The position numbers were made by a program, and so were the translations under genes. Of a DNA stretch of 30,355 bases, positions 1 through 20,220 are shown piece by piece (positions within the stretch are counted from its first letter, which is position 1; every line of letters begins with the position of its first letter). Source of the DNA: a virus; the IMG/VR virus record IMGVR_UViG_3300042555_001917, positions 1 through 30,355 of that record; one strand, given 5' to 3'. The notes beneath the pieces are model-generated. The model did not search any database and had not been told where the DNA came from. It was given only the letters and a program-made list of their open reading frames with translations.

Positions 1-90
1 GTTAGAAAATACATCATGCCCTAAATCTGTTAAAAGCTGCACTTCGTCATACTCAAGAATTGAATGACAACTTATATAATGTATTTTCAT
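1..90 (-). CDS. Glycosyltransferase-like protein, N-terminal fragment (partial)
   Basis: An ATG at 88-90 opens a frame of 30 codons that runs off the left edge without a stop. It overlaps the stop of the preceding gene in an ATGA junction (87-90), the kind of coupling seen elsewhere in this window. The visible peptide starts MKIHYISCHSILEYDEV, followed by a segment reading LLTDLGHDVFS. A short hydrophobic strand, then a helix, then LGHDV is the pattern of the first beta-alpha unit of GT-B glycosyltransferases. With a GT4-type glycosyltransferase just upstream, a second sugar transferase is the best guess. Too little is visible to name a donor or target. The real end lies outside the window. 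Confidence 0.55.
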   Translation of the reverse strand, partial: MKIHYISCHSILEYDEVQLLTDLGHDVFSN

Positions 91-1148
91 AGACTTCCCG
101 TTTCCTTTAGAACTTCCCAGCATCTAGCAATATATTTTTGAGAAACTTTCTCCCAAGTCATGTTCTGATTAATAAATTCAGCACTCTGATATGTTTTATT
201 AGAAACTTCTTCGTAATTATTTGCTACATACAGCATCTTATCACATAGATCATCAAAGTCTGGCTCACCCCACTGTCCAGCATTAGCGTATCTTCCGGTC
301 ATATTTTTAGTCCCCCATGTGAAATCAAGAGGTACAGACATATGAGCAAAATCAGAACATGCTAAAACATTTGTGCAAATTGTAGGGATTCCTTTTGCAA
401 TCCCTTGGAACGGAATATTTCCCCAACCCTCACCACTAGTAGGAAATAACAAACAATCTGCTTTATCATAAATTGCACCCAATTCTTCGTGAGATACTTC
501 ATCATCAATCACTTGAATTTGCGGATGTTGAACTGGACCAATCATGCCGCTTGTCCAAATCCTGGCATCTGGAGGACCATTGGATTTATAAATAAGTCTA
601 TAATTATGATTACCTTCAAACACTTTTAAAAACGCATCTACGGATAACTGCGAGTTCTTACGAGTTGCTGGTGAGCCAACAGAAAGAAAGGTGAATTGAT
701 CGTGCGGAGTTCTCTTTTTTGGAAAATATATTTTAGGGTCAACCCCCAATTTAAATTCATAAACTGGTTTAGTAATACCGGAATTTATAAAGACATCCCT
801 CATGGCATGAGTAGTTGTCCAAACCTCATCCATCTCATTACATCTCTCAACCCAGTCATTTGGTAGCTTATTTGTTTCCCAAAAAGTATAACCAATTGTG
901 TATAACTTGGATTTAACAAACATATCCGGCACTGAATGGTTGATAACAATTTCATCCGCAAAATGCCCTCTTTGAAAATAGCCAATTCCTGGAACATTTG
1001 CTTGCAATCTGCCAATTTCTTCTGGCATAGATGGTTTATTTCGTCTAATTGGTAAACCGCTTGAGCCGATATATTCCCATAGGCAATCTGGTGTATAGCC
1101 GTAACCTTCACTAAATTTTGGGATTTGATTATCAGACCATACAAGCAT
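87..1148 (-). CDS. GT4-type glycosyltransferase
   Basis: This 353-residue protein has the size and C-terminal signature of a family 4 retaining GT-B glycosyltransferase. A strand FTFLSVGSPATRKN begins the C-terminal Rossmann domain, and the donor-site segment LLFPTSGEGWGNIPFQGIAKG follows near residue 240. In most GT4 enzymes this segment has two glutamates seven residues apart (E-x7-E). Here the second is glutamine (GEGWGNIPFQ), so activity or donor choice may differ. The N-terminus begins with a short strand (MLVWSD), so the start looks complete. The ATG at 1148 lies 17 bases after the polymerase stop, with no clear Shine-Dalgarno sequence. The next gene starts inside its stop codon. The target could be virion protein, host glycan or phage DNA; nothing in the sequence decides. 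Confidence 0.8.
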   Translation of the reverse strand: MLVWSDNQIPKFSEGYGYTPDCLWEYIGSSGLPIRRNKPSMPEEIGRLQANVPGIGYFQRGHFADEIVINHSVPDMFVKSKLYTIGYTFWETNKLPNDWVERCNEMDEVWTTTHAMRDVFINSGITKPVYEFKLGVDPKIYFPKKRTPHDQFTFLSVGSPATRKNSQLSVDAFLKVFEGNHNYRLIYKSNGPPDARIWTSGMIGPVQHPQIQVIDDEVSHEELGAIYDKADCLLFPTSGEGWGNIPFQGIAKGIPTICTNVLACSDFAHMSVPLDFTWGTKNMTGRYANAGQWGEPDFDDLCDKMLYVANNYEEVSNKTYQSAEFINQNMTWEKVSQKYIARCWEVLKETGSL

Positions 1149-10983: not shown

Positions 10984-11667
10984 TTAAGCAATGCCTCCAA
11001 TATCTTCAACATATAGTTGTAAAAGCTTTACGCTGGAGCTAGCAGGAACATAGTAGTTAGGCGCATTAGCTGAGCTAGCGCCTTGTTCTCTCTTAACTGC
11101 TGCAAAAAAAGATTGGTTAGTTAAGCCAGAAGAAGATGTTGATAGAACAATTGATAATGTAGAAGCACCGAATTTACTATCATATGCATCATTTCTTAAT
11201 GCAATGTTGGCAATAGTCGCAGACCCGCCAAGAGATGCTGTGTTAATAAAAGCAAAAATTGGAGGAGTGAAATCAGCAGTCAAAATTTGTGATGCCGCTC
11301 CGATGGATGCAAACAACCCGTTATAAACGGCTACTGAATATGTCGCATCTTCAGCACCTTTGGCTTCAACAACAAAGCCAGTAAAATTTAAAGTTACTCG
11401 GTAATAACGAGAAGCCCCAAGGCTTACTCTGTTATCAGTACCGCCAGTACCGGTATCGTCTTTAAGAGAGATAATTTCATTATAAGTTGCAAAGTTTGAG
11501 AAAGCACTACTCGCAGAAGCAACTGATTTAATTTTCTTTACGCCTTGTGGGGCATCATCAGTAGCTTCTTTTACTTGCTGAGTATTGGTTGACATCTGTT
11601 GCAATCTGTCACCAGTGATCGGGGTTCCGTCTGTCCAGGAGACCTGGGAGTAGTTCTCATATGCCAT
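10984..11667 (-). CDS. Putative minor structural protein
   Basis: This 227-residue protein starts with a short motif, SWTDGTPITGDRLQQMSTN, of the kind found at the N-terminus of phage tail-associated proteins. There it precedes a helical or strand-rich appendage domain. The remainder is rich in S, A, T and G with alternating hydrophobic strands (YRVTLNFTGFVVEAKG, IFAFINTASLGGSATIANI) and has no cysteine or membrane segment. A fibre-like or decoration domain would fit. It lies downstream of the AT-rich modification cassette but looks compositionally like the tail genes. A TATAAT sits exactly six bases before the ATG at 11667, which could give a leaderless transcript. GAGG at 12 bases is a weak alternative ribosome site. 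Confidence 0.6.
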   Translation of the reverse strand: MAYENYSQVSWTDGTPITGDRLQQMSTNTQQVKEATDDAPQGVKKIKSVASASSAFSNFATYNEIISLKDDTGTGGTDNRVSLGASRYYRVTLNFTGFVVEAKGAEDATYSVAVYNGLFASIGAASQILTADFTPPIFAFINTASLGGSATIANIALRNDAYDSKFGASTLSIVLSTSSSGLTNQSFFAAVKREQGASSANAPNYYVPASSSVKLLQLYVEDIGGIA

Positions 11668-11684: not shown

Positions 11685-12239
11685 TTATTTCTTTGCTCTA
11701 ATAACTCTATCCAAATAAGATGGACCTTTTGTAAAATACCAATGGTCTGGTTCACAAAAGAAATAAAACACATATGAAGTCAAGTTATTTTCTGGCGATG
11801 GGAAATCTTCCCTCCAATGCTCCTGATCGCATCCATACATAAAAAGGGCTTGGTTTTCATTTAAAGAATATGGTTTATTTTCAACCCATAGATCCCATGG
11901 TGTTTTTTGAAATAAACAATAATCAATAGTGTATGTACAAGCATTATCGTCTTTATGTTTCCATAATTTTGCTTTTTCTGTTTGATAAGTAACTAGTAAA
12001 TTCCATGATGGTTTTAGTGTATTACTTTTAAATTTTTCTTTAGCCATAGGCAAAAGCAACTCTGAACCTTCATTTAAAATTTCAGTATTAGCCCATTGAT
12101 ATCTTCCAAACCCCTCAGAAAAAGCTGACCCATCATCATTAGCCCAAAGGTCCATTGCATATTTTTGTAGTGCATTAAAGTAAATATTATCAAATATATT
12201 TGAAATTACAAAAGGGTCTTGTAAAACCATATTTACCAT
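11685..12239 (-). CDS. 2-oxoglutarate/Fe(II) oxygenase-like protein
   Basis: This 184-residue protein shows the iron-binding triad pattern of 2OG/Fe(II) oxygenases: H95-x-D97 in LWKHKDD and a distal H141 in CDQEHWRED. Between them lies a strand-turn typical of the jelly-roll core (YSLNENQALFMYG). R143 or a later basic residue could hold 2-oxoglutarate. The C-terminal VFYFFCEPDHW closes the barrel. Family members hydroxylate proline, lysine, asparagine or small molecules; the substrate here is not visible. It shares an AT-rich cassette with an O-fucosyltransferase-like gene and a zinc-ribbon gene, next to a Pro/Thr-rich fibre, so a virion protein is a candidate target. The start is ATG 12239 (7-base overlap with the upstream stop) or ATG 12230. 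Confidence 0.6.
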   Translation of the reverse strand: MVNMVLQDPFVISNIFDNIYFNALQKYAMDLWANDDGSAFSEGFGRYQWANTEILNEGSELLLPMAKEKFKSNTLKPSWNLLVTYQTEKAKLWKHKDDNACTYTIDYCLFQKTPWDLWVENKPYSLNENQALFMYGCDQEHWREDFPSPENNLTSYVFYFFCEPDHWYFTKGPSYLDRVIRAKK

Positions 12240-12460
12240 TTATTAAGTGGACATGTTGCATTTTGTAATTTAGTTTTAGCTAGCATAATACAACCACATT
12301 CTTTACATTGTTTTGTTAATTTAATTAACCTATCACAAGATAAACAAATATCGTATCTTCTATTGGCTTCTTCTGCGCTAGCTTTTTGTGTACTTGAATC
12401 CAGCAAATGCCAAGGTCTTGATTCTCCTATTTTCTTTTTATATTCAGACCAAGCTGACAT
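12233..12460 (-). CDS. Small cysteine-rich zinc-ribbon protein
   Basis: This 75-residue protein has CLSC, then CKECGC about 17 residues later, then a final cysteine in ATCPLNKW. A zinc ribbon or short rubredoxin-like knuckle would explain the spacing. I have the impression that similar short proteins accompany oxygenase and glycosyltransferase genes in aquatic phages, but I cannot check this here. The ATG at 12460 is preferred over the GTG at 12463 because GGGAGG lies five bases before the ATG. The start overlaps the end of the fucosyltransferase-like gene by 17 bases, and the end overlaps the oxygenase start by seven. The three are likely one translational unit. Confidence 0.75.
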   Translation of the reverse strand: MSAWSEYKKKIGESRPWHLLDSSTQKASAEEANRRYDICLSCDRLIKLTKQCKECGCIMLAKTKLQNATCPLNKW

Positions 12461-13481
12461 CACAGCCTCCCATATAACTTTCCTTCCATTCTCGCCACCA
12501 TAATTTTTTACCTATTGATATTGTATCATAAGAATTCCAAGAAAATGGCAAACTATTCACTGAACTACTATCACCCATGTTTTTCCAATGATGAATATTA
12601 TTATTTTTTTGATTTATTGCTCTATGTATTAAACCAGAATAAGTGCTACCTATTGTTCCAATAAAATCTTTTGCATTACACATTACTAGCATACAAATTA
12701 AATCAAAAGATATTTTACTTGTTATTGATAGTTGTTTAAATTCATTTAAAAAATTATCTTTAATTAAATTGTCTATATATAAAACACGACCATCATCAAT
12801 AGCAATTGATGATTTAAGATTATCAGTGCATGTAATAATTAAACTGTTGTTTATTTTTAAAAAATTAATTGCATCATTATATTCTTGTTCTGTAACTGAA
12901 TAAATTGTTTGTGCAAAATCGGTCTGTCTTAAATGTATACCAGAAAATTCACCTATTGAAGATGAAATTGTATTTGCCAAATCAATATATTCTTGTTTAA
13001 ATTTTAACTTTTTTAAATATTCATCAAAAGAACTTGTTCTGTTATAAAACATAATAGAATAATATGATAAATTATTATTAAAATAATAAAATTTATCTTT
13101 ATCAATTATCAGTTTATCTCGACCTTCAGCAAATTCTTGTATTTTCTCATCTCCGTCAGAAACCGGGATAAAAGCGTTCATTAAGTTTTTTATATGGTAT
13201 TGCTTACTTGATGGATGTTCAATAATTTTTTTTGAAAAAAATATGTTATCAAAAGACGATGTATCTATAAAATCTGTAATGTAATTAATTTTATTTTCAA
13301 AAGATTCTGACAGGCTCGGTAGCTTTCTCATGTCATGTATATATATTGGAGTTTTGAGAAAATATGATATACCAATCGCTATTTCTAAAGTTATTAATTG
13401 ATTAAATAATCCACCATTCCATAAACGAAATGCATTGTGAGAATTTAAATTTATATTATGTTCTCTCCAAGGAGAATTCAT
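12444..13481 (-). CDS. O-fucosyltransferase-like glycosyltransferase
   Basis: This 345-residue protein shows the conserved pieces of the fucosyltransferase superfamily (GT11/GT23/GT65-68 type). An N-terminal NGGLFNQLITLEIA resembles the GGLGNQ donor loop. GIHLRQTDF (about 181-189) matches the H-x-R-x-T-D motif. TCTDN (218-221) and FIGTIGSTYSGLIHR (about 273-287) match the final GDP-sugar motif. The donor is probably GDP-fucose or a related GDP-sugar; the acceptor is unknown. The DNA is clearly more AT-rich than the tail genes, a sign of transfer. The ATG at 13481 forms an ATGA overlap with the preceding 66-residue gene; an upstream TTG would give ten more residues and is less likely. Confidence 0.72.
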   Translation of the reverse strand: MNSPWREHNINLNSHNAFRLWNGGLFNQLITLEIAIGISYFLKTPIYIHDMRKLPSLSESFENKINYITDFIDTSSFDNIFFSKKIIEHPSSKQYHIKNLMNAFIPVSDGDEKIQEFAEGRDKLIIDKDKFYYFNNNLSYYSIMFYNRTSSFDEYLKKLKFKQEYIDLANTISSSIGEFSGIHLRQTDFAQTIYSVTEQEYNDAINFLKINNSLIITCTDNLKSSIAIDDGRVLYIDNLIKDNFLNEFKQLSITSKISFDLICMLVMCNAKDFIGTIGSTYSGLIHRAINQKNNNIHHWKNMGDSSSVNSLPFSWNSYDTISIGKKLWWREWKESYMGGCDVSLV

Positions 13482-13678
13482 TGTGGTGGTGTAAAAGAAT
13501 CCCCATTCCAAGCCCAGCCAGGGACAACATTTGGTTGATCCGTTACTTCAATCACCGTAGGATTGCTCGCTAAACCAGCAGCCCACGCAGCAGCGCTGGG
13601 CGAAGAAATTTCATCATCAAATTGAACTTGCATAAACACATCACCTTCTGCAATTAAAACAAATCTTCTAGTAGCCAT
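13478..13678 (-). CDS. Small hypothetical protein after the tail fibre
   Basis: This 66-residue protein ends in PGWAWNGDSFTPPQ, a W-x-W-x-G-x-x-F-x-P-P motif I associate with small phage proteins and with C-termini of tail-fibre-linked proteins. The N-terminal half (RRFVLIAEGDVFMQVQFDD) forms two predicted strands. It has no cysteine or membrane segment. An AAGGAG Shine-Dalgarno sequence lies five bases before the ATG at 13678, so translation should be strong. The position directly after the fibre gene suggests a fibre chaperone or virion component, but the function is unknown. Confidence 0.72.
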   Translation of the reverse strand: MATRRFVLIAEGDVFMQVQFDDEISSPSAAAWAAGLASNPTVIEVTDQPNVVPGWAWNGDSFTPPQ

Positions 13679-13703
13679 ATTTCTCCTTTATTAAAGTATA
13701 CCA

Positions 13704-14960
13704 TTAACCAATGCAGAATCCATCTACGCAAATAAAGTCTTGTGGACATGGGGGAGAGCAGCCTGGTACAAATACCGGTGTTGGGGCTACCGGTGTTGGG
13801 GCTACCGGAACTGGAGTTGGTGCAACAGGTGTTGGCTCTGATACTGGCGTTGGCCCAGGTCCAGGGCCACCGTAAGGAACTGGAGTTGGAGCTGTTGGAG
13901 TCGGAGCTACCGGAGTCGGAGCTACCGGAGTCGGAGCTACCGGAGTCGGAGCTACCGGAGTTGGAGTGGGAGCTGTTGGAGTCGGAGTAGGTGTTGGGGT
14001 AGGGCTTGCGCCACATTTCTGTATGCAATACTGATATCCATCTATATATGCGTAAAGCTGATCGTCATTTGCATCGTAATAAAATTCAAAATACTCAGGT
14101 CCGTACCTGTATGCCGACCCAGCATAAGTATAAGAAGTCGTAATTGTATTTGATTGATCTTTCAAGGATAAATCTAATCCCCCGCCAACTAATATTGTTT
14201 CACCATAAAGACTTCCAAAGGCTGCACCCTCAATAAAAACACCGGCTGCTCCGTTTGTTTGCGTAAACTCACCTAATTGCATTGAGCCAGAAAAATTACC
14301 ACCAGTCTCAAGATTGTCGCCAACAATTTGCCATCCAGCAATTTGACCGGCTGTTGCAGTCACTGTTCCGGTTAATTCCAGATTTGTGCCGTTATAAAAC
14401 ATGACATTATTAGCAGAGCCAACAGAAAATGTTCCATTAGAATTCCAATAATTAAGAGCATTGATATATATAGAATCAGCTACAACCGTGCCTCTAATTA
14501 CAGCAAAATCAAATTCAGCACTTCCATCACTATTAATAACCCAACCAGAAACACCAGGGACATAGTTATTACTACTAATTACATTATTGACTAAAACAAT
14601 GTTTGCCGCTAATAAATTAGCAGTAATTGTTCCAGCTGCAATTTCATTTGCTGTAAGTGTACCTGCCACAATAGATTGAGCTTCAATTGATCTTGATATA
14701 ATATGCGCTGAACCATTAATCATTCCTTGTTGAAATACAATTCCTGACGGAGCAATAATAGATTGATTTACAGTGTCAATGATTAATTGTTTAAAGCTGT
14801 CTAAATTTCGTATTTGGTCAGCTGTTCTACTTGGATCTCCTATAATTTGAACAGGAAAGTCGTATACAGAATAAACAGATGTATTAATTAAAGTAGAGTT
14901 CTCACCGTCATGGTTATGACCACCACCTGGATAAAAAGACACCCCGCTTTCATTTATCAT
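13704..14960 (-). CDS. Tail fibre with Pro/Thr repeat linker and cysteine-rich tip
   Basis: This 418-residue protein begins MINESGVSFYPGGGHNHDGENS, a tail-fibre N-terminus. It continues with the LTANEIAAGTITANLL heptad-like region and a GWVINSDGSAEFDFAVIRGTV segment found in the C-terminal parts of phage tip and fibre proteins. After YQYCIQKCGA comes a Pro/Thr linker of PTPTPTP and APTPV units, roughly 75 residues long. The C-terminal tip has cysteines spaced C-x3-C-x5-C-x4-C (CSPPCPQDFICVDGFC), likely two disulfides. The start is ATG 14960, which forms TAATG with the hub stop. A TTG-initiated extension to 15032 would overlap the hub gene by 73 bases and is rejected. This is a likely receptor-binding protein; the tip or linker may be glycosylated. 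Confidence 0.82.
   Translation of the reverse strand: MINESGVSFYPGGGHNHDGENSTLINTSVYSVYDFPVQIIGDPSRTADQIRNLDSFKQLIIDTVNQSIIAPSGIVFQQGMINGSAHIISRSIEAQSIVAGTLTANEIAAGTITANLLAANIVLVNNVISSNNYVPGVSGWVINSDGSAEFDFAVIRGTVVADSIYINALNYWNSNGTFSVGSANNVMFYNGTNLELTGTVTATAGQIAGWQIVGDNLETGGNFSGSMQLGEFTQTNGAAGVFIEGAAFGSLYGETILVGGGLDLSLKDQSNTITTSYTYAGSAYRYGPEYFEFYYDANDDQLYAYIDGYQYCIQKCGASPTPTPTPTPTAPTPTPVAPTPVAPTPVAPTPVAPTPTAPTPVPYGGPGPGPTPVSEPTPVAPTPVPVAPTPVAPTPVFVPGCSPPCPQDFICVDGFCIG
13898..13957. repeat. Tandem 15-bp repeat encoding APTPV units
   Basis: Four perfect head-to-tail copies of a 15-base unit (plus strand GAGTCGGAGCTACCG) encode APTPV. Degenerate copies extend the repeat on both sides, from about 13770 to 14010. 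In-frame repeat length can change by slippage without breaking the gene, so linker length could vary between phages of one population. Confidence 0.92.
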
Positions 14961-17900
14961 TAACTGACCTGCCTTAGCACCATAGTTTGAGTTACAGTAC
15001 TGCCTACACTCAATTGATGCGAAATTACCCAATAATCAGTATTAGATATACCTAAAGCTGTCACATTGGATATTCTAATTCTATCACCCAATTGAACCTT
15101 TGGCATTGCTATAGTGTTTATATTTAAAATAGGAACAGGTATTTGTGTTTTTGAAATAATTAATTCTGCTAATCTTTGAGCATGAACAGTGTCATTAATA
15201 AATGGGCTAGAAATATCAATATCTTTTAACCCATATTTTTTTATGCTTTCACTATTTACAGAAGATTGTTCTTTAATTTGACCATTTTTTTCTGATATCT
15301 CAACAACAACACCGGCAAGGGATGTTGAGTTTTGATATTTAGTTTTAGGATTTTCACCCTCAAGAACAACAACTTCGCCTGCTGGCACTGTGTTTGCAGT
15401 AGCTAATATCAATTCAGCCCCATAAGCATGATGAAGGAATCTTACAATTTCAGCTTGTGGTGGATCATCTATGTCTATTGATGTTATAAAAGGCTTTCTG
15501 ATATTAAAAGCCGGAGAATTATCGTATTTGATATTATAATATCTAGCTTCTCTGACTTTAGAATTATTACCGTCATTAATAATATGAGCCGCTGCTGTAG
15601 TTTGAAATTGACCTCTCTTTAATCCAGTAAAAGAAGTTTTTGTTTTTGAAGTGTATTCAATAATCTCATCTTGAATTTTGATATACCCAGACTTCAAAAA
15701 ATCAGGACTAATTGTTGATGTAACAAACACGACATTTGCTGTTGAGGTTAAATTTGCTGTTAGCGTTGTTGAAATTAAGCTTGAATTTGCTTCAGCATGC
15801 CAAAGAGGTTGCACCTTAGAGGCATTTTTTTGCAATGAAGAGATTGCAATTGTAACCTTGTTGCATTGTAATTGGACAGCATAATCTGCTGAAATAATAT
15901 GGCTACTGTCTGAAATATTTGCTTGAATATTTGCATGTTGAGGAATTGAGGATTCAAAGAATCTGTAGAAGTGTTCGTATCTTGCCTTACCCTCTTCATC
16001 AACATATGTTCTACCTAAATCCGCAAATGTAATGTCATTTATAATTTCTTGAATAGAATTATCATTGCCGTAAAGATATCCAAAAGTAGTCAATGGCTGT
16101 ATTGAAGCCTCAGAGTATCTTTCCTGAACATCAATTAGTGGAAGATACTGATTATAGATAGCAAATTCATCAATAATAAAACTTCTAATAGTGGAGGGGG
16201 CGACTTCCCCAGTCCCAGCAGTATAAGAAGCCCCTCTTCCTCCAATAGTAATATTTGTATTAGCCCAAGAAATAGGAGTACCGACAAGAGTAGTGTTTGC
16301 TTTTAATACTCCATTTACATAATAGTACATTGTTGTACCATCAAAAGTTGTAATGATATGAGAAAAATCACTTGTTGATAAAGCTGTGTTTGATGATACC
16401 GTTTCTGTAGTTACGACAGAATTAGAAAGCGTTCTTATCTTAAATCCATTTGAAGATGAATTGTTAAAAAATTCAAATCCTGTTGTTGGAGATGCATTAG
16501 CCCAATTACTAATGTATTCTCCATTGCTAGAAAAAACTCCATTATTAAACTTAGCAAAAAATTCAATTGACCATTTACCCGTATACAACGGAGATGATGA
16601 GTTTGTTAAATTAATTGATGTATGCAAAGCTGTTCTGATATATGCATTTGATTCAAGCAAAACCGCTTTATTGTTAGGGTCTGAAACAAGACCTGTCGCT
16701 TGACTTAGTTTTGGAGAAGCAATATACACACCAGAACTTCTATGGTTTACCGCATCATTATCAGTAATAACCCCTGAAGGATTTCTTGAACCAATAGAGT
16801 CAATAGCCGCAATAGTGCAGCATTCAGATGCAGGGACTAAAACATCCGCCGCTCCATTTACTGATTTATACAAATATATTTTAAAACTTGGAGTTCCGGC
16901 TGTATTGTTCCAGTTATGGAAGAATTCAATACGAATTTTTCTAGGAACACCAGCAATAAGATTAAGTGTGCTTGATTCATAGCGAGTAAAAGAAGCACTG
17001 GTTTTCCACTGATTTAAAATTAAATGGTCATCCAAGAAAACCCTTACACCACCACTTCTTACATACACAACAATTGTTTGAGAACCATTATCTTTTGGAA
17101 TATAAAATCCATCAAAAACTCCATTGTAATAATCGGTATACACAGTTGAATTCAAACCGGTAAAAGAGTAATCATCTAGTTGAACTGCGTATGCTGAGTT
17201 GGATGAAATATCTTTTGATAAAGCAATATAAGATGGAGATACAAAAGCTAGTTCGCCAAGAGCTTTATCTAACTCAGTAAGCTCTTTATCAATTGCATCC
17301 GCTTTGATATCTTTTACAGAGATATCTCTTTGATTTTCTGGCATTCCCCAGAATCTTGCTCGTAACCCAGAAGATGACACAATATCATTACCGCTACGAT
17401 CAACTGTATCTTCATTAAAAGAATACATTGCAATGGCGTTACGAGATATTGCCCCCTTTCTGTATGGACTAAGTTTTTTAATATCTTTCTTAGGGAAGTT
17501 AGCCCTCATCAATAAATTTTCAACTGCTTCTCCAACAGTAATATTTTGAATAAAGAAACCATAGCTGACAGTTCTTTCAGCAAGATATTTTGACCAATCT
17601 TGTAAACTAGCTGACACAGACATATCCCCAGATTTTGAATTCCACTCATCAACATAGAAAGTTCCATTTTTAACATATTCATAAATATCAAATTTAACAA
17701 CTGCATTTATGGAATGCGATTTGGCAACAGACCCGCCATATCCTCTAGAAACAATATTAAGCGTGGAACTACCAGATGTGCCGGAGCACAATACATACTC
17801 TTCATTTTGAGTATTTTCATCAATAACAACAACAAAATAATTCCCAGCACCGCCAGAAGAAAACACGCTAACATCATTCACTGTAGCTGTAGTTGTAGTT

Positions 17901-18895
17901 GTGTTCATATTGGCTTTTAAGAAAGTTTCAAGATATTGGCTATTGATATAATCAGTAGTTGGTTTTTTAATTCTCCAACCTGTATATATTTCTACTTTTA
18001 AATCTTTTTGTATATATTTGCCAAAATCAGAAGTGGAATCAAATACATTAAACTTCTTACCTGTGTTATCAAAACTAATATCAGCAGATGCAATTTCCGA
18101 TCCGCCAATAGGCATACTGGTGGAATGAACATCTCTTGCTCTAGCGATTGAGTAATCTTGCACATAGTCGCTCATATCAAGCTGGTACAGAGGAACAATT
18201 TCTTGAATCCTTGCGTAATCAGTTGGGTTTTTTGTGCTATGCACAGTAACTTTAATTTTAGTTATATTCTGTGTAGATAAAGCAGTCGAGATAAAATGGT
18301 CTTGATAATACGAGCCATTTGCAATCCGGCCAGTTTCTGAAAGGACAAGGGTATTGGCATTGTAAGCCTCTAGGGTATAATCAGATATCTGGCCATACAA
18401 CTCCGAAGTAATGATTCTAACTTTGTTAACTTTTCTTTCATCAAAAACCGCTTGAACATAAGGGGCTGTAGTGAATGTATAACCAGAGTATGTATTGGAA
18501 GTATTGGCTGTGCTTGCAGTGTTTGACCACCACCCGAACTCCAAAGAGCTTCCGATATGAGTATTTGATAGATCGCTGGTTGTTAAAGAAGGCATAGCAT
18601 AATAGCTACCATCTGCTCTTATAACATCGCCATCCTCATCCTTAGCCCCAGCTACACCCCATGTAAAAGACTGTCTCTCTATGCCATTAAAAGCTTCTGA
18701 CTTACTAAAATAAAACCCGCGATTGGGGTAAGATGTGTTAGAATAATCATCGTTAGTAGTTACTACTAAATTACTTAAGTGTCTACTGTCAAGCCAATTT
18801 ACAATAATTTTTGGTTTAACTTTCTGACCCTTTGCAACAATAGAATTGTTAAAGTCAGATGAAATAGTATTACCGTAATATCCTGTTGTTAACAT
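14960..18895 (-). CDS. Tail-tip hub protein with F5/8-, PA14- and LamG-like domains
   Basis: This 1311-residue protein is encoded after the tape measure and two tip proteins, where the central hub (Tal) sits. The N-terminal third has a discoidin-like jelly roll (about 115-240) and a strand motif ending IVSRGYGGSVAKSHS (about 322-404). That motif recurs as YIKIQDEIIEY...FTGLKRGQF near 1050-1110. A PA14-like domain spans about 555-680 (GVRVFLDDHLILNQWK). A LamG/concanavalin-like domain spans about 745-930 (WSIEFFAKF, HIITTFDGTTMYYYVNG, IIDEFAIYN). The C-terminal hub core includes PKVQLGDRIRISN. PA14 and LamG folds bind carbohydrates, suggesting receptor attachment. No hydrolase motif was seen. 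The ATG at 18895 overlaps the previous stop by one base (TAATG). Confidence 0.82.
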   Translation of the reverse strand: MLTTGYYGNTISSDFNNSIVAKGQKVKPKIIVNWLDSRHLSNLVVTTNDDYSNTSYPNRGFYFSKSEAFNGIERQSFTWGVAGAKDEDGDVIRADGSYYAMPSLTTSDLSNTHIGSSLEFGWWSNTASTANTSNTYSGYTFTTAPYVQAVFDERKVNKVRIITSELYGQISDYTLEAYNANTLVLSETGRIANGSYYQDHFISTALSTQNITKIKVTVHSTKNPTDYARIQEIVPLYQLDMSDYVQDYSIARARDVHSTSMPIGGSEIASADISFDNTGKKFNVFDSTSDFGKYIQKDLKVEIYTGWRIKKPTTDYINSQYLETFLKANMNTTTTTATVNDVSVFSSGGAGNYFVVVIDENTQNEEYVLCSGTSGSSTLNIVSRGYGGSVAKSHSINAVVKFDIYEYVKNGTFYVDEWNSKSGDMSVSASLQDWSKYLAERTVSYGFFIQNITVGEAVENLLMRANFPKKDIKKLSPYRKGAISRNAIAMYSFNEDTVDRSGNDIVSSSGLRARFWGMPENQRDISVKDIKADAIDKELTELDKALGELAFVSPSYIALSKDISSNSAYAVQLDDYSFTGLNSTVYTDYYNGVFDGFYIPKDNGSQTIVVYVRSGGVRVFLDDHLILNQWKTSASFTRYESSTLNLIAGVPRKIRIEFFHNWNNTAGTPSFKIYLYKSVNGAADVLVPASECCTIAAIDSIGSRNPSGVITDNDAVNHRSSGVYIASPKLSQATGLVSDPNNKAVLLESNAYIRTALHTSINLTNSSSPLYTGKWSIEFFAKFNNGVFSSNGEYISNWANASPTTGFEFFNNSSSNGFKIRTLSNSVVTTETVSSNTALSTSDFSHIITTFDGTTMYYYVNGVLKANTTLVGTPISWANTNITIGGRGASYTAGTGEVAPSTIRSFIIDEFAIYNQYLPLIDVQERYSEASIQPLTTFGYLYGNDNSIQEIINDITFADLGRTYVDEEGKARYEHFYRFFESSIPQHANIQANISDSSHIISADYAVQLQCNKVTIAISSLQKNASKVQPLWHAEANSSLISTTLTANLTSTANVVFVTSTISPDFLKSGYIKIQDEIIEYTSKTKTSFTGLKRGQFQTTAAAHIINDGNNSKVREARYYNIKYDNSPAFNIRKPFITSIDIDDPPQAEIVRFLHHAYGAELILATANTVPAGEVVVLEGENPKTKYQNSTSLAGVVVEISEKNGQIKEQSSVNSESIKKYGLKDIDISSPFINDTVHAQRLAELIISKTQIPVPILNINTIAMPKVQLGDRIRISNVTALGISNTDYWVISHQLSVGSTVTQTMVLRQVS

Positions 18896-20220
18896 TAAGC
18901 TTCCTCTAATACCATATTACACGAAAAATAGTATGATTCGCTTGATAAATCTCTTCTAATTAAAGTTTCACTATAACTTGTTATAAAAACATCAATATCA
19001 TCTTCTGTATATGGAGTAACGCCATTAACATCTTGATTGATGATTGTCAAACTATGCACATCTGAATCCTGGGCAATTTGTTTTAAGAAATTTCTAGATT
19101 CTCTTAAATCAACTGTAAAACTTGCTTCGTTGGGGATAAAAGACCAATCAAGATTAAATGTTCTTTTTGCACCTTTTGATGCAGATGTATTTTTGTAGTA
19201 TCGGGATACATTGCCCTGCCAGTTTTCATTTTCAATAAATTTAGGTGTTGCGTTAATAGCAAAAGTTCTTGTTTGATTAGTCAATGACTTATTATCAAGT
19301 AATAATAGATTTCTTATAATAGTGTTATCGGAAACAACATTGGCGCTAAATCTAATTGGCTTAACTACAATATTAGTGTTGTTTAGAACATTAATTCTAA
19401 TTGTAGCTAAGAATATTCTTCCAGCAGTTGTAAGGTTTACTGTTCCAGATAGCGCTGCGTTCAGGAATGAAATCTTGCCAATTGTACTTACAGCATTAGA
19501 TTGAACCGACAAAGCAGACACTGCACGAGCTTGTTTTATAATTGATGTATTAGCTAGAGTCACATCGCCACTAACAGTGGAGTTAGAGATAGCAATTTTT
19601 GTAACATTAATAGTGATATCTGATGCTGCAGCTCCAGCGGTTTCATCAAGTTCACCAAATGCAATTTTTTGCATTTCAACAGTAACGCTAACATTACTAG
19701 AAATAGCTACAGTTCCATCTTGTCTTTCAAAGACAGCTAATAATTCAACATCTAGCAATCCAGAAATATTCACAACGGCTTGTGCTGTTTTGACAATACT
19801 TGTTGTTACATTAACTGAGCTATCGTTTATCGCAGAAACGCTAAACGCAATTTTTTCTGAATCAAATGACGCTACAACATCACCACTTTGAACAGATGAA
19901 GCTAGGGCTATCTTCTCTATATCTGTGGACACAACCGTAGAGCCGGCAATATTACTTGCAGAGCGTGCAAATTTTGTTATTGAGACAACAACATCAGAAG
20001 AAATATTAATATTTGACAACGCATCTTGTCTTTCAAAGACTGCATTAAGTGTTGTATCAAGAGCGCCAGAAATGCTAATTTGAGCAAAAGCTGTTTTAAT
20101 AAAAATGGCACTTACATTGCTAGTGATATCTATGGATGCATCAATGATGACATAATCATCTGCTCTATAAAAATCTATACCAGAATTAAGTGGTTCAGAA
20201 AAACTAAAATAGCTTTCCAT
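18895..20220 (-). CDS. Tail-tip protein with ~20-residue tandem repeats and a shared C-terminal domain
   Basis: The 441-residue product has two parts. Residues ~27-297 hold about a dozen degenerate repeats of 19-24 residues. The consensus is roughly ISGxVxVxxxxxKIAxxxx; AVFERQD occurs twice, and KIA, KTA or KIS many times. Alternating hydrophobics suggest a beta-strand stack or solenoid. Residues ~300-441 form a domain shared with the 138-residue protein encoded just upstream: both end in a near-identical SYSETLIRRDL segment, followed by aromatic strands. The gene therefore looks like a duplicate of its neighbour into which a repeat array was inserted. The likely role is a distal tail (Dit-like) ring or tip component; no sequence family is certain. 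The ATG at 20220 directly follows the upstream stop. Confidence 0.75.
   Translation of the reverse strand: MESYFSFSEPLNSGIDFYRADDYVIIDASIDITSNVSAIFIKTAFAQISISGALDTTLNAVFERQDALSNINISSDVVVSITKFARSASNIAGSTVVSTDIEKIALASSVQSGDVVASFDSEKIAFSVSAINDSSVNVTTSIVKTAQAVVNISGLLDVELLAVFERQDGTVAISSNVSVTVEMQKIAFGELDETAGAAASDITINVTKIAISNSTVSGDVTLANTSIIKQARAVSALSVQSNAVSTIGKISFLNAALSGTVNLTTAGRIFLATIRINVLNNTNIVVKPIRFSANVVSDNTIIRNLLLLDNKSLTNQTRTFAINATPKFIENENWQGNVSRYYKNTSASKGAKRTFNLDWSFIPNEASFTVDLRESRNFLKQIAQDSDVHSLTIINQDVNGVTPYTEDDIDVFITSYSETLIRRDLSSESYYFSCNMVLEEA

Follow-up and report, generated by a model that had tools for sequence, protein, structure and literature searches.

Does a phage hydroxylate and glycosylate its own tail fibre? 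The question is raised by the IMG/VR virus record IMGVR_UViG_3300042555_001917, whose whole 30,355-base stretch (mostly 33-41% G+C) is called the window hereafter. In it, a fibre with an APTPV/PTPTP linker and a Cys-rich tip is followed by genes for a fucosyltransferase-like enzyme (FUT), a zinc ribbon (ZNR) and a 2-oxoglutarate (2OG)/Fe(II) oxygenase-like protein (OGO). The first-pass annotation had pointed out this arrangement and proposed a joint hydroxylation-glycosylation cassette serving the fibre; each of these genes was found in its place, while a further 66-aa gene had been overlooked. We put the probability that the cassette is a fibre-linker modification system at roughly two in three. 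The most likely form of such a modification would have proline as the hydroxylated residue, a reading we hold slightly better than even.

Association of the cassette with Pro/Thr-rich linkers

A search with OGO gave 122 relatives, 80 of which were compared; counts here include related contigs unless called non-redundant, and presence or absence was set by hidden Markov model thresholds. ZNR and OGO both occur in 83/83 loci first compared, adjacent in nearly all, and FUT occurs in 46/83, an arrangement beyond chance. The fibres differ, with a window-type homologue in only 8/83 loci, and a Pro/Thr-rich open reading frame (ORF) lies directly upstream in nearly every OGO locus with enough flank. 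The reverse search started from DNA encoding the APTPV repeat APTPVAPTPVAPT, without using the enzymes, and gave 96 loci. Of these, 72 have 3 kb or more of downstream sequence; in it OGO or an oxygenase of the prolyl 4-hydroxylase (P4H) type was found in 70, ZNR in 68 and a glycosyltransferase in 70, and the upstream control showed an oxygenase in 0/50. The two loci lacking an oxygenase, L242 and L287, carry the repeats within a 1956-aa protein of another phage, not in fibres of the window kind. Additionally, in 98 non-redundant loci, a set anchored on the cassette, a linker Pro content of at least 25% coincides with OGO and/or P4H in 88/89. Another locus, L167 (2-5548), apparently from another phage group, has a PT-rich fibre followed by a glycosyltransferase of family GT60 and a second, large enzyme; neither ZNR nor a recognised oxygenase is present.

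The linker of the window fibre (ASPTPTPTPTPTAPTPTPVAPTPVAPTPV...) is built of PTPTP/APTPV repeats, in which Pro recurs at intervals of two or three residues and almost always follows T, A or V. Across the 98 loci, the residue preceding linker Pro is T in 57%, A in 24%, V in 6.5% and S in 2.4% of cases (together about 90%); in non-fibre proteins of the same loci, this position is led by N/L/G/D. The T/A/V/S-Pro context is the one favoured by plant prolyl hydroxylases.

The oxygenase also varies with linker proline inside one lineage. This control was anchored on A4, a separate structural gene downstream, with 80 of at least 554 A4-family loci compared, and 40 non-redundant loci were divided at a Pro content of 22%, a cut set after the data were seen. 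An oxygenase is present in 36/36 Pro-rich loci versus 1/4 Pro-poor loci (Fisher p 4e-4, a rough value because of the post-hoc cut, the small Pro-poor class and the relatedness of the loci). Specifically, in L330, L307 and L363 the fibre gene is the same but its linker is Thr-rich and of the TTTTTAAP type; these loci keep ZNR and GT60 with neither OGO nor P4H. A corresponding control for the window lineage, made through the gene at 18895-20220, gave 4 loci, too few for comparison, and a search for further Pro-poor loci with the pattern TTTT(A/S)AP returned mostly unrelated phages. A finer code between linker type and oxygenase type (for example VTPAV with P4H and JmjC only) was suggestive but phylogenetically confounded, and was dropped.

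These associations bear on another reading, in which the cassette targets a host surface glycan or something else (exclusion, serotype change, DNA) and lies beside the fibre since cargo genes accumulate in tail modules. Phage glycosyltransferases frequently act on DNA or on the host surface (reviewed in PMC12619734), and the slot also contains epimerases, a sulfotransferase gene and one of SGNH-like type. We regard this reading as distinctly improbable, as the cassette is tightly linked in both search directions to the repeat type and not to fibres in general, and the oxygenase covaries with linker proline inside one lineage.

Predicted chemistry of the enzymes

The window OGO has no Pfam match, and 17/36 relatives match Pfam 2OG-FeII_Oxy_2 weakly. 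The AF2 model (36 relatives; predicted local distance difference test, pLDDT, 89.7) adopts a double-stranded beta-helix. By Foldseek it matches 554 PDB chains at E <= 0.001, with prolyl hydroxylases best (E 1e-7); the best matches are proline hydroxylase H11, Dictyostelium PHD, PHD2, the PBCV-1 collagen prolyl hydroxylase and a Pseudomonas P4H. The iron triad H95, D97 and H141 is invariant in 36 aligned proteins, and the HxD...H motif is present in 90/93 distinct OGO proteins. On this model, OGO is a protein of the 2OG/Fe(II) oxygenase fold, with prolyl hydroxylases nearest. A search of 84,980 genomes of bacteria and archaea found no OGO, and neither FUT nor the window OGO matched named phages (megablast and tblastn of the window). 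An AlkB-type nucleic-acid demethylase was considered (17 weak Pfam matches; a somewhat lower place of AlkB in Foldseek) and not favoured. The ferrochelatase label of phrog_2954 was rejected for OGO on the grounds of the 2OG oxygenase fold and motifs. The same label occurs for OGO-type proteins in PHROGs and UniProt, and Synechococcus phage S-SM1 ADO97289 (GU071094.1 39219-39749, locus L301; PHROG 2954) is annotated as ferrochelatase, yet is an OGO homologue with the 2OG oxygenase fold.

In the 98 loci, the oxygenase slot holds OGO alone in 50, OGO with a P4H-type enzyme in 25 and a P4H-type enzyme alone in 19. The latter enzyme, present in relatives and not in the window, matches 2OG-FeII_Oxy_3 at 67 bits against a cut-off of 27, and its profile finds bacterial P4H structures in the PDB at E 8e-10. 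Further genes of the slot are FUT, GT60 or other glycosyltransferases and GDP-mannose 3,5-epimerase, and occasionally a JmjC/cupin protein, a sulfotransferase or a nucleotidyltransferase. All 10 GT60 relatives tested by profile match PF11397 (first 73.6 bits against a cut-off of 21, best 3e-46), which we take to be the family of the Skp1 hydroxyproline GlcNAc-transferase (CAZy). A sulfotransferase-like gene lies between fibre and ZNR in L079 (1215-2006) and seven other loci, which hints at sulfated fibre glycans. A radical SAM/SPASM protein, possibly another peptide-modifying enzyme, adjoins the cassette in L330 (5569-6570), L363 and L150; in 2/3 Pro-poor loci it directly follows ZNR, in the oxygenase slot.

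The window FUT scores 17.4 bits with Pfam O-FucT, below the gathering cut-off of 31.5, and 13/19 relatives match it weakly (best E 2.3e-5). Its profile finds protein O-fucosyltransferase (POFUT) 2 at E 3e-5. The AF2 model, of moderate confidence (pLDDT 75.8), matches POFUT1/2 by Foldseek; its VIA Z scores are 16.3 for POFUT2 and 14.4 for POFUT1, followed by NodZ/FUT8 at 12-13 and also plant FUT1, with a gap to GT9 at 8.9. HxRx[TSA]D is present in 38/38 distinct FUT proteins. FUT is thus modelled as a protein O-fucosyltransferase-like GT-B glycosyltransferase, its donor and acceptor being predicted. Across the loci, glycosyltransferase and donor-making gene occur as matched sets: FUT is accompanied by GDP-mannose 3,5-epimerase in 29/32 loci and by GT60 in 0/32, and the epimerase of the relatives matches plant GDP-mannose 3,5-epimerase at E 3e-92. 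Its product, GDP-L-galactose, differs from GDP-L-fucose at C6 only. Because of this partner epimerase, we suggest GDP-L-galactose as a fitting donor for the fucosyltransferase-like FUT. The epimerase is absent from the window lineage, and neither GDP-mannose dehydratase nor epimerase was found in the 59.5-kb relative of the window, so the donor sugar of the window FUT is probably supplied by the host.

ZNR carries the motif CxxC...CxxCGC...CPxxKW, in which the Cys residues are invariant. The window protein reaches 22.8 bits with DUF6171, under the cut-off of 27, and 32/32 aligned members match at E <= 0.01 (best 3.5e-11); by sequence, homology to DUF6171 is clear and formal membership borderline. 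In L162, ZNR and GT60 are fused in one protein with both domains above the Pfam cut-offs; the fusion links the zinc ribbon with glycosylation and not with hydroxylation. In Synechococcus phages S-SRM01 (L298) and S-SCSM2R (L300), DUF6171 genes adjoin long tail fibre or adhesin tip genes, and S-SRM01 has a flavin-dependent halogenase annotated between fibre genes.

Several observations weigh against hydroxylation and glycosylation of the linker. Generic (PT)6 linkers of other phages are accompanied by the cassette oxygenase in only 5/68 loci (63/68 without), so such linkers do not need the cassette; Pro/Thr linkers exist without the cassette, while the cassette hardly exists without Pro/Thr linkers. 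L162 has a PT linker beside its ZNR-GT60 fusion with no oxygenase found, and counting it, in the larger A4-bearing set, moves the rough p to 9e-4. In 21/84 loci profiles recognised no glycosyltransferase, and some of these encode HLRR-type proteins that have neither a label nor a Pfam match. As for OGO itself, no Arg/Lys stands at the usual 9-12 residues past the distal His (H141), the candidates for the basic residue binding the 2OG carboxylate being R143 (invariant) and K112. A profile search of the PDB with OGO found no P4H, and hhalign of OGO against P4H set A5 gave a probability of 0.3. The top VIA-align match of the model is the sugar epimerase SnoN (Z 16.6), tied within about 1 Z with a Burkholderia oxygenase (16.0) and with prolyl hydroxylases (one from Trichoplax, 15.6, and PHD2, 15.5), so the substrate of OGO is not settled by fold alone. 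On the model, OGO would work like a prolyl hydroxylase, with hydroxylation as its predicted activity, but its sequence does not place it in the P4H family. Finally, a DNA polymerase at 38-42% identity is common to the compared phages, including the window phage and its large-contig relatives, so that the loci are not independent.

The shared polymerase is what plain common descent would predict, that is, co-inheritance of fibre and cassette in one phage clade with no functional link. We give this little credence: the pairing persists despite widely differing fibre backbones, linker types, oxygenase sets, glycosyltransferases and gene order, and losses follow linker composition. A T4-like placement of the relatives was dropped as a label, as the search for the sheath family gave no match.

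Alternatively, the glycosyltransferase may modify linker threonines only, in a mucin-like manner, with the oxygenase acting elsewhere, on a sugar, a glycan or another fibre residue. POFUTs modify Ser/Thr, GT60 is retained beside Thr-rich, Pro-poor linkers, and the tie with SnoN fits an oxygenase acting on carbohydrate. We nevertheless consider this unlikely, since the oxygenase is lost at Pro-scarce linkers while the glycosyltransferase remains, and a second, clearly P4H-type enzyme occupies the same slot in many loci.

The first-pass annotation had asked whether the cassette recurs beside Pro/Thr fibres of related phages, and it does so in both search directions. Two of the three outcomes that it had named as counting against its proposal did not arise. 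Occurrence mostly in phages without such fibres is the reverse of what we see (70/72 downstream versus 0/50 upstream), and in place of damaged active sites the catalytic motifs are intact, with HxD...H invariant in the OGO alignment and HxRx[TSA]D kept in FUT. Together, the co-occurrence, the intact motifs and the oxygenase loss at Pro-poor linkers support the proposal that hydroxylation and glycosylation genes form one cassette for the Pro/Thr fibre, the enzyme activities being predicted from fold and family.

Layout of the locus

The main genes of the window all lie on the minus strand (Table 1), and neighbouring genes from the fibre to OGO overlap or nearly abut. Short genes recur in relatives at the position of the 66-aa gene. 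The fibre ORF opens at TTG 15032, and its start was placed at ATG M25 (nt 14960), conserved in relatives; its N-terminal part matches Pfam Phage_Tail_Tip (E 3.5e-4) and phrog_31, central tail fibre J (4.5e-6). The likely FUT start at ATG 13481 corresponds to the invariant M11 of alignment A2. The 227-aa gene following OGO is probably outside the cassette.

Table 1. Features of the window around the fibre and the cassette
Feature	Position	Strand	Remarks
Tail protein, 1311 aa, PA14 and LamG domains	14960-18895	-	Tail module, directly before the fibre in gene order
Fibre (tail-tip/fibre protein)	13704..14960	-	Resembles Phage_Tail_Tip / central tail fibre J at its N-terminus; linker (Pro/Thr) and Cys-rich tip at its C-terminus; candidate substrate
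Linker of the fibre	about 13761..14009	-	~83 residues, read directly
Cys-rich C-terminal tip of the fibre, CSPPCPQDFICVDGFCIG	13707..13760	-	Read directly
66-aa gene between fibre and FUT	13478..13678	-	No Pfam match
FUT, POFUT-like GT-B glycosyltransferase	12444..13481	-	ORF opens at 13511; likely ATG start 13481
ZNR, DUF6171-type zinc ribbon	12233..12463	-	Invariant Cys; DUF6171 matches of aligned members
OGO, 2OG/Fe(II) oxygenase-fold protein	11685..12239	-	Predicted fold nearest prolyl hydroxylases; triad H95, D97, H141
227-aa gene after OGO, probable virion protein	10984..11667	-	Retained only in nearest relatives

Other genes of interest were also observed. The fibre C-termini of L372 and L320 carry intein/hint-like sequence past the linker (e.g. 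CVEENTLIDTPSG...VSGILIHNK), which suggests self-processing of the stalk. Upstream, before the Pro/Thr fibre, many relatives encode a collagen-like protein with (GXY)14 whose length is constant (242-245 aa; e.g. L043 198-926); it could be a second hydroxylase substrate. In the window, a second glycosyltransferase at 87-1148 (minus strand; phrog_2170 E 2e-34, GT4-type Pfam matches) lies beyond the DNA polymerase, distant from the fibre, and may belong to the same pathway or have another target.

Proposed pathway and comparison with known systems

In the pathway we propose, OGO would hydroxylate prolines of the adjacent fibre, in its (A/T/V)-Pro repeats, and in many relatives a P4H-type enzyme would join or replace it. 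The glycosyltransferase would then add sugar to hydroxyproline and/or threonine; in the window this would be the POFUT-like FUT using GDP-L-fucose or GDP-L-galactose, and in others GT60 using a UDP-sugar. The DUF6171 zinc ribbon would be an accessory, perhaps an adaptor joining linker and glycosyltransferase. The outcome would be a mucin/extensin-like stalk, extended and resistant to proteases, carrying the Cys-rich tip. As benefits, the first-pass annotation proposed that such decoration could stiffen the fibre, protect it or alter its contact with the receptor. We infer the substrate, the modified residue, the order of steps, the sugar, the role of the zinc ribbon and the benefit alike. In its general form, on which our judgement is evenly balanced, the proposal is that phages make hydroxyproline-linked glycoproteins by a transferable operon (a zinc-ribbon adaptor, one or two 2OG prolyl hydroxylases, and a swappable glycosyltransferase with its matching donor gene) that decorates Pro-rich fibre linkers, with enzymes fitted to the linker repeat.

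If this is true, repeat proteins that are both hydroxylated and glycosylated would be made by phages as well as by plants, algae, protists and giant viruses. The fibre linker would then be a testable substrate for the many unassigned 2OG oxygenases, DUF6171 ribbons and glycosyltransferases that aquatic phages encode. It would also explain protease resistance or glycan display of receptor-binding stalks. The proline content varies between linkers, each of which comes with a matching enzyme set, and this offers a natural experiment for predicting enzyme specificity from sequence.

Virion glycosylation is already known in phages, and hydroxylation together with glycosylation of a fibre would be categorically new for them if the chemistry is shown. 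The first-pass annotation knew of no described phage system of this kind, and we likewise found no prior report of proline hydroxylation and glycosylation of a phage fibre among the open-access papers searched. Among the systems nearest to hand, T4-like cyanophages (e.g. S-SM1, Sf-FS3) also have an OGO homologue and a DUF6171-P4H-Fe2OG-epimerase-glycosyltransferase block, which, unlike the cassette, is not beside a Pro/Thr fibre in the records examined. In Synechococcus phage Sf-FS3, a cultured phage (host WH8102) that has this block, the gene for structural protein SfFS3_168 contains a CCNACN (Pro-Thr) repeat. Plant and algal extensins and arabinogalactan proteins carry hydroxylated and glycosylated Ala/Thr/Val/Ser-Pro repeats, the same repeat type as the phage linkers. 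The plant enzymes, however, work in the secretory pathway and belong to other families, and no arabinosyl- or Hyp-galactosyltransferase was recognised in the phage. Hydroxyproline (Hyp)-linked glycans are the main O-glycan class in plants and algae (PMC8724618). Mycobacteriophage virions are glycosylated, with phage glycosyltransferases implicated (Freeman et al. 2023, cited in PMC12619734); they share with our proposal glycans on phage virion proteins, but theirs lie on capsid and tail-tube C-termini, and the passage on them mentions no hydroxylation step.

Mimivirus L230 is a lysyl hydroxylase-glucosyltransferase that acts on a collagen-like virion protein (PMC9614988). It resembles the proposed system in being a virus-encoded hydroxylation and glycosylation of the virus's own repeat protein, and differs in modifying lysine in collagen Gly-X-Y repeats by one bifunctional enzyme, in a giant virus of amoebae. 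In the Skp1 pathway of Dictyostelium and other protists, a soluble 2OG prolyl hydroxylase is followed by a hydroxyproline GlcNAc-transferase and by further sugars including fucose (PMC8724618). Relatives of the window similarly encode a P4H-type enzyme and GT60 in one operon. Skp1, however, is modified at one site on a regulatory protein, whereas the phage repeats are long and stand on a virion fibre; the window has a POFUT-like enzyme instead of GT60, and the phage activities are predicted. By this analogy, the phage operons, P4H with OGO and GT60 or OGO with FUT, look like the logic of the Skp1 pathway applied to a repeat.

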